This document shows, in pieces, positions 3,676 through 19,005 of a stretch of 36,829 nucleotides of DNA. The first letter of the stretch is position 1; each line of letters opens with the position of its first letter. The position numbers and the translations under genes are program-made. This DNA comes from Chloroflexota bacterium (lineage in GTDB: Bacteria > Chloroflexota > Chloroflexia > Chloroheliales > Chloroheliaceae), in the NCBI GenBank assembly GCA_902812345.1, contig CADDZM010000015.1, positions 1-36,829 of the forward strand, given 5' to 3'. A model generated the notes under the pieces. The model searched no databases and was not told the origin of the DNA. It saw nothing but the letters and a program-made list of their open reading frames with translations.

Positions 3676-4611
3676 TTAAATTCCCACATTTCCGCCGAAA
3701 GTCTCGACTTCCAGGCCGGTCTTTTGCCGGATGATTCCGGCAATTTCTTCCAGTTCCACATCGGGCAGGCTTGTGACCCATTCGTAAGGTGGCCGCCGGG
3801 CGACGGTGTAAAGCTGGACCAGGTTTAACTGCCCGCCTTTAGCCCTGATTTCGTTCAGCCGGGCGCAATATGCCTCTACTTCTTCAGGCGATGGCCCTTC
3901 GCTGTGTACTCGCAAAAAGCAGGTCTGGATATTTATCGGCTGCGTGCGGGCCGTTTCCAGCAAATTCCGCAACACCTTCTCGAAAGATACGTTCGTCCGG
4001 TCAATCAGGTCGTAGTAAGTCGCGGTCCCGGCGTCCAGTTTGCCCCAGACCTCCCCGTTGTTAGCAGCCAGAAGCTTCAGCCCGGCCCTGACTACCGGAC
4101 GGTGCAATTGGGTGGCATTGGTTATCAATACCAACTTGACTTCCTCCGGGGCAAAACCAGCCCCGGCGCGGGCGTCAATCGCGGTCTGGATAGCCTGGTC
4201 GAATAGCGGGTAAGTAGTCGGTTCACCGTCACCGCTAAAGGCAATATCGTTCAGGCGGCGCAGTTCCGGGGCAACCTCTTTAAACTCCGGTTCCTGCCAG
4301 ATTTCGCCGGTCCGCACCAGGCGCAACAACTCGGCCAGTTCTTCCCGGATTTCTTCCAGGCTGACCTGGGGCCGGAGCAGGTTTTTGGGCGGCAGCGGCA
4401 GCTTACTTTTGCCAGGCCGGAAGTCGCGCCGGTCCACCTCACAATAGATACAGTCGAAGTTGCAGACCCGGTCCGGGTTAAGGTTTACCCCGAGAGACAG
4501 CCCTTGCGAACGGCGCGAGATTACCGGGTAGCACAGGCGAAAGCTGCGCCAGTTCCGCGAATGGGCCTCGAACCCTCTTGACCCGCTATTTAGGACGATA
4601 CTCCGTGCCAT
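3676..4611 (-). CDS. COG0731-type radical SAM protein
   Basis: The 311-residue protein carries the radical SAM cluster motif C-x3-C-x2-C (Cys50, Cys54, Cys57 in RVCNFDCIYCEVDRR), preceded by the SRRSQGLSLGVNLNPD stretch that typifies COG0731, the group related to wyosine-type tRNA enzymes and MoaA-like oxidoreductases. GDGEPTTYP (the G-G-E motif for SAM binding) and VKLVLITNAT are also present. Its substrate is not known; bacterial members are mostly uncharacterised, and a tRNA-modification role would be a guess. GAAGGGG stands about 6 bases before the ATG. It lies upstream of the phosphodiesterase gene in a likely two-gene operon. Confidence 0.85.
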   Translation of the reverse strand: MARSIVLNSGSRGFEAHSRNWRSFRLCYPVISRRSQGLSLGVNLNPDRVCNFDCIYCEVDRRDFRPGKSKLPLPPKNLLRPQVSLEEIREELAELLRLVRTGEIWQEPEFKEVAPELRRLNDIAFSGDGEPTTYPLFDQAIQTAIDARAGAGFAPEEVKLVLITNATQLHRPVVRAGLKLLAANNGEVWGKLDAGTATYYDLIDRTNVSFEKVLRNLLETARTQPINIQTCFLRVHSEGPSPEEVEAYCARLNEIRAKGGQLNLVQLYTVARRPPYEWVTSLPDVELEEIAGIIRQKTGLEVETFGGNVGI

Positions 4612-11719: not shown

Positions 11720-11968
11720 TCAGCTCTCCCGGAAGAAGTCTACAACCTCGCGGCGTTCTTCGTCTGTTACCATTATCTCGATAAAGTTAATCCGGCTCCA
11801 GGGAAAAAGAACCGACTTTACGCGTGGGGTCAGGTAGGTTACCGGTTTACCGTCGCGTTTGCGCAGGTTGTTACAGGCGAAATAAACGGCGGAAGGGTCG
11901 GGCAAATCTTCCATGTCCGCCAGAATAGGGTCTTCATTCAGGATATGCAAAATAACTGTCTTTGGCAC
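11720..11968 (-). CDS. Conserved 82-residue protein of unknown function
   Basis: The start is a GTG at 11968 with an excellent ribosome site (AAGGAG, 7 bases away). The protein begins VILHILNEDPILADMEDLPD, continues with YFACNNLRKRDGKPVTYL and has a hydrophobic core SVLFPWSRINFIEIMV before an acidic end. I recognise the pattern (HILNEDP ... LPDP ... FPW.RINFIE) as that of a small conserved protein of Chloroflexota genomes with no assigned function; the fold may be a small beta-barrel. It follows the FHA gene after 77 bases on the same strand and could belong to the signalling cluster or be independent. Confidence 0.75.
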   Translation of the reverse strand: MPKTVILHILNEDPILADMEDLPDPSAVYFACNNLRKRDGKPVTYLTPRVKSVLFPWSRINFIEIMVTDEERREVVDFFRES

Positions 11969-12045: not shown

Positions 12046-12714
12046 TCAGCCCAGCGTTTGTTCCTCGCTGAAGATTGTTTTCAAGATAATGTTGCCCAGG
12101 CGAATTTCATCTCCATTGTGTAATTCGTGCGGCAGCCCTTTTGGCAACAGTTTGCGATTGATAAAAGTCTTGTTGGTGCTGCCCAGGTCGGTCAGAAAGA
12201 CCTGCTCATCCTGGAACGTGAGGGCGGCGTGGCGGCGGCTAACGCCCAACTCCGCCCCTTTATCCTGGGTCAGGTCAATATCGGGAGCATCCTCAAGAAC
12301 CAGGTCACTGCGCCCGATAACCACCTTTTCGTACCTGGGACACTCTATAAACCGCCCGGTATTAAGCACGATAAAACTTATCTCAGGCAGCCAGCGGTTG
12401 ACCACCCTGGCAGATGGGGCGGGCGTTACCGGTATCGCGGGTAGGGGCGGTGGGAAAACCGGGTAATCCGCCTGGACCGGCCCGCCGGTTTTCGCTTCGG
12501 GGGCCGCCTTTTTCGGGTTGGTAGCGTGGCGGCGCGTTACCGGGTTCGGTGGGACCGGCATCACGGGTGGGGCCGCGGGAAGCGAGGTCGAAAAAAGTTC
12601 ACCCAGGTCGAATTCACGGCCTTTTGGCGCGGCAGTTTGTAAGTCCCAGCCGCACTCCGAACAAAACATTGTGCCGTTCATTTGTTCCGTTTTGCAATGT
12701 GGGCAAACAATCAT
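12046..12714 (-). CDS. Zinc-ribbon and FHA domain protein
   Basis: The 222-residue protein starts with a zinc ribbon (Cys4, Cys7, Cys18, Cys21 in CPHCKTEQMNGTMFCSECG), passes through a Pro/Ala-rich linker (about 40-105) and ends in an FHA domain (about 115-215). The phosphothreonine-binding residues are in place: VIGRSD, SRRHAAL and LGSTNKTFIN, with NGDEIRLG after it. FHA domains read the product of Ser/Thr kinases; the kinase, phosphatase and VWA genes just upstream make the partner obvious. No membrane segment is present. It has its own promoter at 12808-12836, so its level can be set apart from the kinase. Confidence 0.9.
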   Translation of the reverse strand: MIVCPHCKTEQMNGTMFCSECGWDLQTAAPKGREFDLGELFSTSLPAAPPVMPVPPNPVTRRHATNPKKAAPEAKTGGPVQADYPVFPPPLPAIPVTPAPSARVVNRWLPEISFIVLNTGRFIECPRYEKVVIGRSDLVLEDAPDIDLTQDKGAELGVSRRHAALTFQDEQVFLTDLGSTNKTFINRKLLPKGLPHELHNGDEIRLGNIILKTIFSEEQTLG

Positions 12715-12885: not shown

Positions 12886-14241
12886 TTAATCAAAATCGGT
12901 TGCCAGACCCCGCGTGCCGTACTTGATGTGTTTGCGGCCACCGCTGCTGGTCGTGCCGCGCTGCTCCAGGTTCCGAATTTCCTGAAGCACCTGGTTCGCC
13001 AGGTCTCCCTCACCAATATTGAGCAGGCGGGTCGAAACCGCTGTCAGCCGCTGAGTACCGCTTTTAATATCACCTCTGGCAATATCCTGCCAGGCTTTGG
13101 CCTGCAGCCGGTAAGCCGTCACTTTTTCAATCAAACTTTTAACATCCGGGTCAATCGCAATCCCGGCGGTATTGTCGGAAAAACTAAGCCCCATAGCCAT
13201 TTTTAGCTGGACGTTTGGTTTTTCGGTTCCGGCCGGTTGGAAGGCTAAGCGTACGCTCCCGGCTGGCAAAACGCCCGGTTCGCAATTGGACGCGACCATT
13301 TCCAGGAGCAAAGTATAACGAGTATGGAGCGTCAACGGCCCCAGATTATACTCGACTGCGCCGTCCGGCATAGGCCTGGCGGGTAGTTCGGCAATAATCG
13401 GCGACACCCGGTGTATTTGCTGCAGCCGTATTTGAGGTGAGAGTTCAAACCGTAAGTTACTGACCGGCGTGACAGTATTGCGCAGGGTCTTTATTTTCTT
13501 CAAAAAGGTGGACATTATTTTGTCGGCGCTGGCAATATACTCGGTATTGCCGCCACATTGGGCCGCCACGGTTTCCAGCAAATCTTCGTTCCAGTCAATC
13601 CCCACACCCATCGCGTGGATAGCAATCCTCTGGCGGGCTGCTTCCTGGCCCAACTGCACGCAGCGGTCGGCGTCACCGTAAGTCTGGCCGTCGGTAAGGA
13701 GGAGCAAGAAATTAAGGGAAGTTTGCTCGGCTGCCGGCTTCATTTCATTGATACCGGCGTAGAGACCATTTGCCAGTTCAGTACCGCCTCTGGCGTCAAT
13801 GCTGTCAATATGGTGCTTGATAGTTTCTTTCGAGGTAACTTTCTGGCAACTGACTACAACCGTGGCCCGGTCGTTAAAGCTGACCAGTGAGAAATAGTCG
13901 CTGGGGGTTAGCGCGTCTACGAGGCGGCGGGCTGCCGCTTTGAGGGCATAAAGTTTTTCGCCCCGCATCGAACTGCTCTGGTCGAGGACAAGCGCGATGT
14001 TAAGCGGGGTGCGCTGGATGTCCCGGCGGTCTTTACCCAGTAACACTTTAAGCAGCACATAGACAACCTGGCTTTCCCTGGTTGCGGGGAAAATTTGAAA
14101 AGCGGGCACAAAGTCAATATTGAGGAATTCTTCGTCAGGGTCTTTTTGTTCATCCACGCGAACCAGGCCCAGTTCGGAGGAAGTATCGCAGGTATTTTTT
14201 ATCGAATGAGGGTTGAGTTCATCGAAATTAGTTGATTCCAT
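12886..14241 (-). CDS. von Willebrand factor A domain protein
   Basis: The 451-residue protein contains a VWA domain at about residues 80-250. The MIDAS metal site is complete: ALVLDQSSSM gives Asp87, Ser89 and Ser91, GGTELANG the Thr, and LLLTDGQTYGD the second Asp. The C-terminal part is a beta-rich region (SPQIRLQQIHRVSP ...) followed by a helical region typical of the inter-alpha-trypsin-inhibitor-like or YfbK-type VWA proteins. There is no signal peptide or membrane helix, so it is cytoplasmic. GGAAG lies 7 bases before the ATG. Sitting between phosphatase and FHA genes, it is likely a scaffold of the kinase module. Confidence 0.9.
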   Translation of the reverse strand: MESTNFDELNPHSIKNTCDTSSELGLVRVDEQKDPDEEFLNIDFVPAFQIFPATRESQVVYVLLKVLLGKDRRDIQRTPLNIALVLDQSSSMRGEKLYALKAAARRLVDALTPSDYFSLVSFNDRATVVVSCQKVTSKETIKHHIDSIDARGGTELANGLYAGINEMKPAAEQTSLNFLLLLTDGQTYGDADRCVQLGQEAARQRIAIHAMGVGIDWNEDLLETVAAQCGGNTEYIASADKIMSTFLKKIKTLRNTVTPVSNLRFELSPQIRLQQIHRVSPIIAELPARPMPDGAVEYNLGPLTLHTRYTLLLEMVASNCEPGVLPAGSVRLAFQPAGTEKPNVQLKMAMGLSFSDNTAGIAIDPDVKSLIEKVTAYRLQAKAWQDIARGDIKSGTQRLTAVSTRLLNIGEGDLANQVLQEIRNLEQRGTTSSGGRKHIKYGTRGLATDFD

Positions 14242-14389: not shown

Positions 14390-15316
14390 TTAAAATTTCG
14401 CGATGACCACCGTGACGTTATCCACCCCCCCGGCCCCATTGGCCGCCTCGACCAGGCTTTCACAGGCTTCCAGCGCTGAGCCGCTCGTTTTAAGGGTTTG
14501 TTCAATGGCGCTATCCGGCACCAGTTCCCATAAACCGTCACTGCACAGCAGCATGGCCGCGACATCGGTTAGCGGCAGCAGCTCGACATCAGGTTCAATC
14601 TGGGGTTTCTGGCCGACCGTCATGTAAAGGACACTGCGTTGCGGGCTGGACTGGGCTTCTTCAGGGGTGAGAGTGCCCATATCCACCAGGCGCTGCACGA
14701 TGGAGTGGTCGTGCGTAACCTGGCGCAATTTCCCACTACTTTTCTCCAGGACGTATAACCGGCTGTCCCCGACGTGGCCGATAATGGCAGTCTGGCCGAT
14801 TAAGACCGCGCAAGTCAGGGTTGTTCCCATCGAAGTCCGGGTCTGGTAGCCTTCCTGCAAAATGGCCTGGTTAGCGTCTTCCATTGAAAAGGCCAGGGCT
14901 TCCAGGGGCGACTCGCCGTCACGGCCCGGTTGGCGTCCTTCCAAACTCGGCAAGTAGAAATTACGTAAGACGCCTTCACTTATTTTGCGGACAGCCAGGT
15001 TACTGGCAACTTCCCCGTTTTCGTGTCCGCCCATGCCATCGGCAACGGCCAGAAAGGTAAAGACCAGTTCCGGGCCGACGTTATTCAGGCGCGGAACCGA
15101 AGCCGTAAAGGCGCTGAAACTATCTTCGTTGTTGGTCCTTATCCGGCCCACGTTGGTTAAAAAGGCTAACTCGACCTGGTTGGCTGCCAGTCGCTGGGCC
15201 GCTATGCCTTTAACCGGTGATGCCGCCCCGTTAGATTTACGGTTTTTAGGAGCAGGCCGGTTCTCCCGCAGGGCGGTATTGGCCGGTTTCGCCCGGCGTC
15301 TGGGTGTCTCATCCAT
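14390..15316 (-). CDS. PP2C-family Ser/Thr protein phosphatase
   Basis: The 308-residue protein has a basic, disordered N-terminus (residues 1-45) and a PP2C catalytic domain. All metal-binding acids are visible: NNEDSF (Glu64, Asp65), VADGMGGHENGE (Asp93, Gly94), LLCSDGLWE (Asp260) and VDNVTVVI (Asp299); GHVGDSRLYV is also typical. It lacks membrane segments and resembles stand-alone PrpC/Stp1-type enzymes that reverse Hanks-type kinase action. AAGGA stands 9 bases before the ATG. The gene starts 51 bases after the kinase-propeller gene, so the pair is almost certainly cotranscribed. Confidence 0.94.
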   Translation of the reverse strand: MDETPRRRAKPANTALRENRPAPKNRKSNGAASPVKGIAAQRLAANQVELAFLTNVGRIRTNNEDSFSAFTASVPRLNNVGPELVFTFLAVADGMGGHENGEVASNLAVRKISEGVLRNFYLPSLEGRQPGRDGESPLEALAFSMEDANQAILQEGYQTRTSMGTTLTCAVLIGQTAIIGHVGDSRLYVLEKSSGKLRQVTHDHSIVQRLVDMGTLTPEEAQSSPQRSVLYMTVGQKPQIEPDVELLPLTDVAAMLLCSDGLWELVPDSAIEQTLKTSGSALEACESLVEAANGAGGVDNVTVVIAKF

Positions 15317-15367: not shown

Positions 15368-17575
15368 TTATGATTGGTCAGAACTTGGAGCGGTCAGGGC
15401 GTACATCCGGTAATCGAGTGACCCAATGTAGACGTGGCCGTTATCAATGGCCGGAGAGGCGCTAATTGGCCCTTCGGTGGGGTAGAACCAGCGGGGAGTA
15501 CCTTTTTCCGCGTCAAGGGCATACAAATTCCCATCCACGCAGCCAAAATATACCACTCCATCCGCGATACGCGGCGAACTGGTTACCTGCTTGCCGGTGT
15601 TGAATTTCCAGCTCAACCGGCCATTTTTAGCCTCCAGGCAGTAAAGATAACCGTCTACCGAACCTACATAAACTTTCCCGTTGTAAAACAGGGGCGAGCT
15701 ATTGACATAACTATTCGTCTTGAACTTCCACAGCACCCAGTTATTTATAGGGTCCCAGCAATAAAGATTGCCATCGAGCGAACCGAAAATTACCATATTC
15801 TCATGGACCATCGGCGAACTGATAATGCCTTCAAGGGCGCGGAATTTGGTTTTAATGTTGCCGTTGTTACCGTCCAGGGCGTAAACGTGACCGTCCATAC
15901 TGCCGACATAAACTATCCCGGCTGACACCGCCGGAGTGCTGCGGACCGGCGCCCAGGTGCGTTGTTTCCAGACCACCCGCCCGCTGCGGGCTTCTACACT
16001 GTAAACGTGCTGGTCGTCCGAGCCAAAAAATACCAGGGGCGAGTAGTAGCGGGCCGAACTGCGAATCGGGCCGCCCGTCCGACAAGTCCAGACCTGATTG
16101 CCCTGCTCGATGTCAAAAGCGTAAAGGGTGCCGTCTTCCGAGCCTACTATGATAGCCCGGTCGGTGATGGCCGGGACAGTGCAGACCCCCCCGGTCGTGG
16201 GCGCTTTCCACAAAAACTCGCCCCTGGCCGCGTCAAGGGCGTACAGGTTGCTATCATAGGAGCCGAAATAGACCACGCCGTTACTGACGACCGCGTTATT
16301 GCGGATTTCTTCCTCGCTGGCGAAGCTCCAGACAAGCTGGCCCATCGGCAAATCTTCCGGGGCAGTCAGCGCCTCGCTTTCTTCAACCGGTGTCTGGCGG
16401 AAACGGCTGCTGGTCGTCCCGTTCGTCATATGTTCAGGGCGAGCGGCAGGCGCGACGGCGGCATGGTTGTTCAGGCCTGGAATGTTCAGGGAAGTCGGGT
16501 TAATGTTAATGCCGGTTAAACCGGCCCCACGCGCCGCCACCAGGCTGCTGGTGATAGGGTTCAGGCCGCCGGTAGCGCCGCGATGCCCGTTCCCATTACC
16601 ATCCGGGCCGCCCTGGTGGTACTGGGCAAATTTTCCTTCGAGAACTTTAAGCAAAGCCTGGCGTAGCTCGGCCACGGTCTGCCAGCGTTTAGCAATATCA
16701 AACTCCAACGCTTTCATAACCACGGCTTCGGTTTCAGCCGAAACTTTTGGATTCTTGCTCCGGGGGAGCCTTTCATGGAAAGTGAAAGGCACTTCCATAC
16801 GCGGGTCGGAGTTGGTCAGCAACTGGTGGAGGGTTGCGCCCAGGGCGTAAATATCACCGCCGGGCAGGGCCAGACCTTTGTACTGTTCAGGCGGCGAATA
16901 ACCTTCCGTACCGATCATGGTGCCTTTTTTGTCTTCCTGGAAATTCTTGGCAATACCGAAGTCAATCAATACAAGCCGGTTGGCGTGGGTGAGCATAATG
17001 TTCGAAGGCTTCATGTCGCGGAAGACAATCGGTTTAGGCCGGTGATTGTGCAAATAGCCCAGCACGTCGCAAAGCGCGACCCCCCATTCCAGCACCTGTT
17101 GCTCCTCAAAGGGTGTGTTTTGTTCTTCCAGGACTGCTTCGAGGTTTTTGCCTTCAATATATTCGAGGACCAGGTAACGCCGGTCGTTAGCGGCAAAGAA
17201 ATCAAAGATTTTCGGGATAGAGGGATGGTTGAGCATCGCCAGGAAGTTAGCTTCTTCCTCAAAGCGTTTGAGTTTATCCAACCGCACGTTAGGGTCGGTG
17301 GAGACATCAAACATTTCTTTAATGGCGCAGACCCGCACCGTCGAGGCAAAGCGAATATCGCGGGCGCGGTAAACGGTACTCATACCGCCGTAGCCGATAG
17401 CCTGTTCTACCTCGTAACGGCCTTCCAGCAACTGCCCGCGCGGCATGGTGTTACCGGCGCCAAGGCTATTGCGCAGGGCTTCCAGGGATGTTGTTTCATC
17501 CTTCTTGTCGCCGCGCTCCGGTTCGGGTTCGTTTGGCTTATTTAAGCTCGTAGTACCGATTTTTTTGATTATCAT
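15368..17575 (-). CDS. Ser/Thr protein kinase fused to a PQQ-type beta-propeller
   Basis: The 735-residue protein has a Hanks-type kinase domain (about 54-312): glycine loop GYGGMSTVYRAR, Lys86 in AIKEM, the catalytic loop VFRDMKPSN with Asp187, and DFG at 205-207. The usual His of the HRD motif is Phe185. After a Gly/Pro-rich linker (315-410) come about eight repeats of a PQQ/BamB-like propeller (415-728), each with a YVGS.DG.LYALDA core. No transmembrane helix separates the two, so the propeller is predicted to be cytoplasmic, unlike the extracellular sensor propellers of many kinases. The propeller may bind a ligand or act as a docking platform. The ribosome site before the ATG is weak; the promoter lies at 17699-17727. 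Confidence 0.92.
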   Translation of the reverse strand: MIIKKIGTTSLNKPNEPEPERGDKKDETTSLEALRNSLGAGNTMPRGQLLEGRYEVEQAIGYGGMSTVYRARDIRFASTVRVCAIKEMFDVSTDPNVRLDKLKRFEEEANFLAMLNHPSIPKIFDFFAANDRRYLVLEYIEGKNLEAVLEEQNTPFEEQQVLEWGVALCDVLGYLHNHRPKPIVFRDMKPSNIMLTHANRLVLIDFGIAKNFQEDKKGTMIGTEGYSPPEQYKGLALPGGDIYALGATLHQLLTNSDPRMEVPFTFHERLPRSKNPKVSAETEAVVMKALEFDIAKRWQTVAELRQALLKVLEGKFAQYHQGGPDGNGNGHRGATGGLNPITSSLVAARGAGLTGININPTSLNIPGLNNHAAVAPAARPEHMTNGTTSSRFRQTPVEESEALTAPEDLPMGQLVWSFASEEEIRNNAVVSNGVVYFGSYDSNLYALDAARGEFLWKAPTTGGVCTVPAITDRAIIVGSEDGTLYAFDIEQGNQVWTCRTGGPIRSSARYYSPLVFFGSDDQHVYSVEARSGRVVWKQRTWAPVRSTPAVSAGIVYVGSMDGHVYALDGNNGNIKTKFRALEGIISSPMVHENMVIFGSLDGNLYCWDPINNWVLWKFKTNSYVNSSPLFYNGKVYVGSVDGYLYCLEAKNGRLSWKFNTGKQVTSSPRIADGVVYFGCVDGNLYALDAEKGTPRWFYPTEGPISASPAIDNGHVYIGSLDYRMYALTAPSSDQS

Positions 17576-17698: not shown

Positions 17699-17727
17699 AT
17701 TATAAGGTACAAACATGGCGTGTGCAA
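17699..17727 (-). promoter_or_regulatory. Sigma70 promoter of the kinase-phosphatase genes
   Basis: On the minus strand TTGCAC (17722-17727), exactly 17 bases, and a perfect TATAAT (17699-17704). The leader to the kinase ATG would be about 115 bases. Confidence 0.65.
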
Positions 17728-17781: not shown

Positions 17782-17852
17782 ATTGCCTTCTTAGGCAATG
17801 ACCGGCCTGGCATAGCCGTTAAAATAACGGCTTTATGTTGCGCTGTCCGGTC
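17782..17852. ncRNA. Candidate structured RNA between the kinase and radical SAM-like genes
   Basis: Three nested or adjacent stems occur within 71 bases: ATTGCCT/AGGCAAT with a 4-base loop (17782-17799), AGCCGTTA/TAACGGCT with a 3-base loop (17814-17832), and GACCGG/CCGGTC (17800-17805 with 17847-17852) closing around the second. None is followed by a T-run, so they are not simple terminators. A minus-strand extended -10 element (TGTTATAAT, 17888-17896) lies just upstream. It could be an RNA element or a protein-binding site; the strand is uncertain. Confidence 0.35.
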
Positions 17853-17925: not shown

Positions 17926-19005
17926 CTACTTCCACAGCGTATTGTGAATCGTTAAAGCCGCTCCACAGTAGCCGCATTTATTTTCCTCGAGGCCGGTCAG
18001 CCGCACTTCCTGGTTATGGCGGTCAATCAGGAGGCTGTGGCAGCGGTGACAGTAAGTGTTGCCGTTTACGGCGCTATCGAAAATGGCCGCAAGTGGTTCT
18101 TCAGCGGCGGGGACCGGCGCGCCTTCTTTCAAATAGATATAGTTAAGACCGCAATTTAAGCCGATTTCTTTTATCCGGTCCAGTTCCTGCCTGGCTCCAG
18201 GAAAGCCGCCCGAAAGATGCCAGGGTACATTTGCGCCAAGACCCTGTTTTATCCAGGTCGCCAGCAGTTCCATTTCACCCTTGCTGTCGTTTACGCCCGG
18301 AACAATACGGGTGTGAATTTCAAGGTGGCTTTTGTATTTGAACTGGGCCCGCCGGGCGATTTCCAGCACTTTCTGAAAATTGTGGCGACCGGTCAGGGTA
18401 TGAAAACTGCGCTCGTTAAAAGCATTGACCTCAATCAGAAACCCATTCATGTAATGGCCGAGCATTTCCAGGGCTTCCATCGTCATGTAGCCGTTCGTGA
18501 CCATGGCGGTAAACATGCCGTTAGCCCGGATATTTTTGGCGGCATCCAGCATGTATTCAAACCACATGCTCGGCTCATTGAAGGCAAAGACCACGCCCCG
18601 GCATTGGCGCTCAATGGCGAAATGGGCCAACCGCTCGATAGGCAAGAAGCGCGCAGCCGCACCGGGCGGCACTTCCACGAAAGCAGCCTGGTCCGGCGTC
18701 GCCGGGAAATTCAGGCCGTAGCCGCCCACGCTAAAGACCTTCACGCCGGGAAACAGGTGATAAAAATTACGGCTTTCGATGCGTTCCAGGTCAGCCTTAC
18801 TCACGAGGCCGTAATTGGTGGCCTGCAGCGTCCCGTTCTGGTTGACGCGCATGCCGCAAACCCCAACCTGGCCTGGCGCCAGTTCGCAGTGATAACTGCA
18901 AATACGGCAGCGCTTTACCTGGCCGTCCAGGTCTTCGGCCAATGGCGCCGGGTGGATACTGTGGGAAACTGGCAAGCTGGCGGTTTCGTTCACATCTTCA
19001 CTCAA
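17926..19005 (-). CDS. AmrS-like radical SAM homologue lacking the cluster cysteines
   Basis: The 359-residue protein follows the AmmeMemoRadiSam-type radical SAM enzymes along its whole length: an N-terminal cysteine set (Cys33, Cys36, Cys40, Cys50) with the GVCGMRVNQNGTL pattern, FPGVKVFSVGGYG, FAFNEPSMWFEY, MVTNGYMT, TRIVPGVNDS and PWHLS. The 4Fe-4S motif, expected as GCN-x2-C-x2-C-Q right after SVG.YG, reads GLNFPATPDQ: Leu98, Ala102 and Asp105 occupy the cysteine positions with no insertion or deletion. A C-terminal zinc ribbon (Cys319, Cys322, Cys344, Cys347) is intact. It should therefore not make a radical from SAM in the usual way. The start is a TTG at 19005 with an AGGG ribosome site about 9 bases away. 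Confidence 0.82.
   Translation of the reverse strand: MSEDVNETASLPVSHSIHPAPLAEDLDGQVKRCRICSYHCELAPGQVGVCGMRVNQNGTLQATNYGLVSKADLERIESRNFYHLFPGVKVFSVGGYGLNFPATPDQAAFVEVPPGAAARFLPIERLAHFAIERQCRGVVFAFNEPSMWFEYMLDAAKNIRANGMFTAMVTNGYMTMEALEMLGHYMNGFLIEVNAFNERSFHTLTGRHNFQKVLEIARRAQFKYKSHLEIHTRIVPGVNDSKGEMELLATWIKQGLGANVPWHLSGGFPGARQELDRIKEIGLNCGLNYIYLKEGAPVPAAEEPLAAIFDSAVNGNTYCHRCHSLLIDRHNQEVRLTGLEENKCGYCGAALTIHNTLWK

Follow-up and report, generated by a model that had tools for sequence, protein, structure and literature searches.

The gene under study lies on the minus strand at positions 17926–19005 of the window, by which we mean the whole 36,829-nucleotide stretch of Chloroflexota DNA that was analysed. 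It starts with TTG and encodes a 359-residue homologue of AmrS-type radical SAM enzymes, identified by translation and profile matches. Downstream on the same strand, the next gene (15368–17575) encodes a Ser/Thr protein kinase with a PQQ-type beta-propeller. It is followed by genes for a PP2C phosphatase (14390–15316), likewise assigned by profile matches, a VWA-domain protein (12886–14241), a protein with a zinc ribbon and an FHA domain recognised by Pfam (12046–12714), and a conserved 82-residue protein (11720–11968) which closes the module and whose orthologue has no Pfam match. The kinase, phosphatase and VWA genes are adjacent, an arrangement like that of TerY-P-like signalling triads, the VWA protein itself having a generic Pfam VWA match only. 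The AmrS homologue and the kinase gene are separated by 350 bp, and a promoter-like site between them, TGCACA-16-TATAAT (17699–17726, minus strand), has close counterparts, by eye, in two genomes of the same genus; with such a conserved site, the kinase module could be transcribed alone. The same interval contains a palindrome, AGCCGTTA-AAA-TAACGGCT, at 17814–17832, which is absent from the corresponding gap in relatives.

The initial annotation, made from the letters alone, described the protein as AmrS-type throughout, and full-length alignment agrees. The NCBIfam model TIGR04337 (AmmeMemoRadiSam rSAM) matches residues 27–351 with an E value of 9.5e-47 and 159.5 bits, a score that misses the curated family cut-off of 220 bits. 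Pfam Radical_SAM scores above its own cut-off and covers the protein only from profile position 31, that is, after the cluster motif. PADLOC gave no match for the homologue itself.

Radical SAM enzymes are defined by a three-cysteine cluster. In the window protein, as first noted, the CxxxCxxC motif is replaced by L98-x3-A102-x2-D105, in the context VFSVGGYG-L98-NFP-A102-TP-D105-Q; minus-strand translation places residues 98–105 exactly at 18714–18691, and an alignment with 40 canonical relatives puts L98, A102 and D105 in register under the three cluster cysteines. The three Cys ligands of the site-differentiated [4Fe-4S] cluster are thus missing from the sequence. At the position where canonical relatives have GTWGCNFHCxxCQNWEI, clusterless rows read, for example, GGWGYALPVDQQRG, GGWGTSFPAHHD and GGYGLNFPATPDQ. 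The flanking G, N, F and Q were thought to be kept in register; this holds for glycines 94 and 97, but N, F and Q are unconserved in the clade. Aligning the cluster cysteines to Cys33, Cys36 and Cys40 instead is excluded, since canonical AmrS proteins carry those residues and the triad together. The window holds one more radical SAM gene (3676–4611, minus strand); this one retains its cysteine motif, CNFDCIYC, and is a useful internal control.

Canonical AmrS has 11 conserved cysteines, and only the three cluster ligands are gone in the clusterless clade. The metal-type cysteines that the initial annotation had reported as remaining are all there, and all eight align with canonical cysteines. 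Four form an N-terminal motif, C33-x2-C36-x3-C40-x9-C50 (18856–18909, minus strand), which is invariant in the clade and in canonical AmrS; the other four form a zinc-ribbon-like C-terminal motif, C319-x2-C322 ... C344-x2-C347 (17965–18051, minus strand), conserved in both groups. A barrel motif, H227-x-E229 ... G237-x-N239-D240 (18286–18327, minus strand), is also retained. Positions shared with the canonical sisters and unchanged in 90% or more of the clade rows are the eight cysteines, G48, E77, H83, P86, G97, P145, E150, G172, F196, E229, N239, D240, P261, Y291 and R329. Lost from the clade, besides the triad, are KKP before it, QNW(x)I after it, an F-x-P...T ('FYP...T') loop, and the Lys of the canonical D-x-K, replaced in the window protein by Asn194 (18424–18426, minus strand). 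This Lys aligns with Lys131 of PFL-AE, a residue which contacts SAM. It had been argued that simple decay would have hit other motifs as well; because KKP, the D-x-K Lys and the FYP...T loop have also gone, that argument fails. As read from the alignment, the catalytic centre is dismantled and the scaffold kept, in what is a coordinated loss. Loss of radical chemistry is strongly supported, and retention of SAM binding looks doubtful.

Structure prediction, proposed earlier as a check, returned a radical SAM half-barrel. The AF2 model has a pLDDT of 72 and a pTM of 0.74, with most of the barrel at 75–93; residues 98–117, which form the ex-cluster loop, fall below 50, as do the N-terminus, residues 295–315 and a few short stretches. 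The prediction is therefore of a radical SAM barrel with a disordered ex-cluster loop. The alignment supplied to AF2 held seven sequences (the window protein, one related genome locus and IMG/VR loci), and since five of these are canonical, the predicted fold is partly their signal; two sequences only gave a useless model (pLDDT 34). In a Foldseek search of the PDB, the top match to the model was PFL-activating enzyme (3c8f; E 1e-9, TM 0.69 by target), and further matches were other radical SAM enzymes such as viperin. The window protein is thus predicted to share the half-barrel of PFL-AE (PDB 3c8f/3cb8). It differs in lacking the cluster cysteines and Lys131, both present in PFL-AE, and in carrying two extra cysteine-rich ends.

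A profile search of 158 genomes of one Chloroflexota class, with inspection of the motif in the retrieved loci, recovered a clusterless copy in 67 genomes from families f1, f4, f5, f6, f8, f10 and f11, and loss of the triad is common to at least 67 species of this one class. Same-family orthologues with 80, 70, 55 and 48% identity to the window protein lack the triad in independent assemblies, which excludes assembly error as its cause, and the loss is also seen in 62 more genomes of the class. No intermediate with two cluster cysteines was found among the 67 carriers; a single cysteine is present in the G007 copy, judged by eye to lie one position off the aligned column. In a maximum-likelihood tree of 79 rows, computed with motif columns removed by a quick method without bootstrap, the 39 clusterless rows form one clade (SH-aLRT 99), which answers in the affirmative the question of whether a clade shares the replacement. 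This clade is nested in a 63-row clade (SH-aLRT 99) otherwise made up of canonical Chloroflexota AmrS proteins, nearly all from other classes and many from small genomes of 1–2 Mb. The nesting indicates common descent with AmrS, and convergent losses are ruled out by the single change on the tree. Canonical copies found alongside the clusterless gene in this class mostly fall into different, outer AmrS lineages, and for this reason the clusterless gene cannot count as a spare of such copies. In clade pairs with finite dS, dN/dS is 0.037–0.146, with several pairs near saturation. A scan of viral sequences with the clusterless profile found no relatives.

Families f6 and f11 (47 genomes) carry their own motif at the former cluster loop, G-[GS]-W-G-Y-A-x3-D-Q-x-R-G-x-Y, in which Y, D, R and Y are nearly invariant. 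This is a new constraint and not relaxation. Together with the single origin, the 67 species and the dN/dS of 0.04–0.15, it upholds the proposal that the replacement was selected. Triad loss common to one well-supported, selected branch means that a whole family now labelled 'radical SAM' almost certainly has another function. One candidate for that function is a new non-radical enzyme, in which the remodelled loop and the retained H/E/N/D barrel residues would make up a new active site. Strong conservation of polar loop residues (D/Q/R/Y) in f6 and f11 speaks for such a site, and H227, E229, N239, D240, H83 and E150 are nearly invariant. The loops of f1, f4, f5, f8 and f10 differ, however, leaving no clade-wide catalytic set in place of the cysteines, and canonical AmrS shares most of the residues conserved outside the loop, so that they may be structural or inherited. 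We regard a new enzyme as the main rival, and as unlikely.

Canonical sister genes are usually followed by Memo and AMMECR1, fused or adjacent, within tens of bases. Eleven genomes of the class have AMMECR1, and each of them has the clusterless gene; Memo is present in 11 as well, each with a canonical AmrS. In f8, AMMECR1 lies directly downstream of the clusterless gene in nine of nine carriers, with gaps of 3–57 bp in the loci read and an overlap in one ORF call. The AMMECR1 beside the clusterless gene reads LRGSVG in two loci (L044 of G027 and L092 of G077), where the usual hexapeptide is LRGC[IV]G. Two IMG/VR contigs (L152, L153) encode single-chain Memo-AMMECR1-AmrS fusions of about 736 residues with a canonical CxxxCxxC, a Rosetta-stone hint that the three work jointly. 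An AmrS-like protein on a 548-kb IMG/VR contig (L156) has an apparent intein right after its last cluster cysteine (GCSLKCVFC, then LPTGTLIST...).

The window protein is the sole AmrS-like gene of its own genome (G000; 6.7 Mb, 91% complete), in which no second, canonical AmrS was found to compensate; Memo and AMMECR1 were found neither there nor in the other four f1 genomes. The canonical AmrS with Memo and AMMECR1 that the initial annotation suggested looking for in this genome is accordingly not present. Another radical SAM-type frame in the genome (G000:C276:7290-7667, L157) matches only from profile position 43, and its start is likely upstream or disrupted. Altogether 42 of the 67 carriers, including the window's genome, are without Memo, AMMECR1 and canonical AmrS. 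If the role was inherited, it must therefore have persisted after these partners disappeared.

In each of the five f1 genomes, as in G008 (f5), the kinase gene comes directly after the clusterless gene, and the order is clusterless gene, kinase, PP2C and VWA, then FHA and the 82-residue protein. In G007 (f4) Memo stands between the clusterless gene and the kinase, with PP2C after the latter; set beside the f1 and f5 order, this suggests that in f1 and f5 the kinase module arrived first and the loss of Memo came later. Elsewhere the surroundings change. Upstream of the clusterless gene, f6, f10, f11 and some f8 genomes usually have a divergent S26 signal peptidase together with a glycosyltransferase; U32 and M29-type peptidases lie downstream in G031, G039 and G021; and lipoate ligase and glycine cleavage genes lie downstream in f8, f11 and partly f10. 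At five f8 and f11 loci (L034, L035, L038, L044, L086) the lipoate ligase and glycine cleavage genes, the latter named by eye, are 3' and on the same strand. Since neighbourhoods differ between families, they point to no single partner for the whole clade.

These arrangements bear on the possibility that the protein belongs specifically to the Ser/Thr kinase-PP2C-VWA-FHA module, as a sensor, scaffold or substrate. Its place directly upstream of the kinase in six genomes, and separated from it by Memo only in G007, speaks for such a role. But 60 of the 67 carriers belong to families without such an arrangement in the sampled neighbourhoods, and 350 bp and a promoter-like site of its own separate the window's kinase gene from the AmrS homologue. 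The link in the window is positional only. The earlier suggestion of an accessory to the kinase module is backed by adjacency in f1, f4 and f5, a real but local link, and is set back by its absence from the other four families and by the promoter-like site in the window's genus; a dedicated module role seems to us improbable. A deeper connection, out of reach of the initial annotation, is the one to AMMECR1 and Memo. Far less credible is a protein that is still a radical SAM enzyme, with a cluster that different cysteines bind or that a partner provides. Eight cysteines in two four-cysteine motifs do remain, but canonical AmrS has the same eight plus the triad, which implies that they have their own role, and the Lys131 equivalent and other pocket residues have been lost as well. 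A pseudogene or a sequencing or assembly error, for which an in-frame TAG in one carrier (G054) might speak, has a negligible chance and is refuted for the clade by frames intact in nearly all carriers, by the independent assemblies and by the dN/dS values.

Set against AmrS (TIGR04337, COG1180), the window protein is alike in its full-length alignment, its N-terminal CxxCxxxCx9C, its C-terminal CxxC...CxxC and its barrel motifs, and some clusterless relatives have AMMECR1 or Memo as neighbours; it is unlike in being without CxxxCxxC, the DxK Lys and the FYP...T loop, in falling below the family cut-off, and in residing in a genome without Memo or AMMECR1. The explanation that we favour, and consider on the whole probable, is that a single loss of the triad took place at the root, or close to it, of a large part of this Chloroflexota class, that the gene was then kept vertically, and that its product is a neofunctionalised, non-radical binding or adaptor protein with its origin in the AmrS-AMMECR1-Memo set. 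A branch of AmrS would have lost its [4Fe-4S], SAM-cleaving centre once and then been retained under selection for a non-radical job. With no cluster, the protein would have no means of making a 5'-deoxyadenosyl radical; its half-barrel and two metal-stabilised end domains may instead be used as a binding or adaptor subunit, which would recognise a ligand or protein that the AmrS-Memo-AMMECR1 set formerly handled. Memo and AMMECR1 are gone from the window's lineage, and there the protein may serve the kinase/phosphatase/VWA/FHA module as a sensor or scaffold. Of the roles first put forward for the protein, a non-radical one is the only sensible reading, while that of a SAM binder shares the doubt over SAM binding.

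The nearby VWA-domain gene brings to mind the vWA/FtsH ternary conflict systems, where a protein related to the Memo-Ammecr1 radical SAM enzyme also occurs near such a gene and its AmrS-related radical SAM domain was described as catalytic and peptide-modifying (Kaur et al. 2020; PMC7159879); the gene studied here, in contrast, has no recognised FtsH, MoxR or peptide gene beside it. We found no description of a clusterless AmrS in the literature searched, which is not proof of novelty. What emerges is an old, selected radical SAM branch that gave up its cluster yet kept the rest. Standard profiles such as Pfam Radical_SAM still label these proteins 'radical SAM' across a whole bacterial class, and the name 'radical SAM enzyme' should be avoided for the clusterless ones. 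In f8 (Herpetosiphon-type, a name we infer), the clusterless protein and AMMECR1 make a two-gene unit, mostly without Memo or canonical AmrS, which offers a stripped-down way to probe the still unexplained AmrS-AMMECR1 pair. It is conceivable, and we put it forward tentatively, that these proteins are class-wide radical SAM pseudoenzymes which no longer carry out radical chemistry, retain the AmrS interface with AMMECR1 and Memo, and were later recruited beside a Ser/Thr kinase module. If that is true, the AmmeMemo set would have a second, non-radical function.
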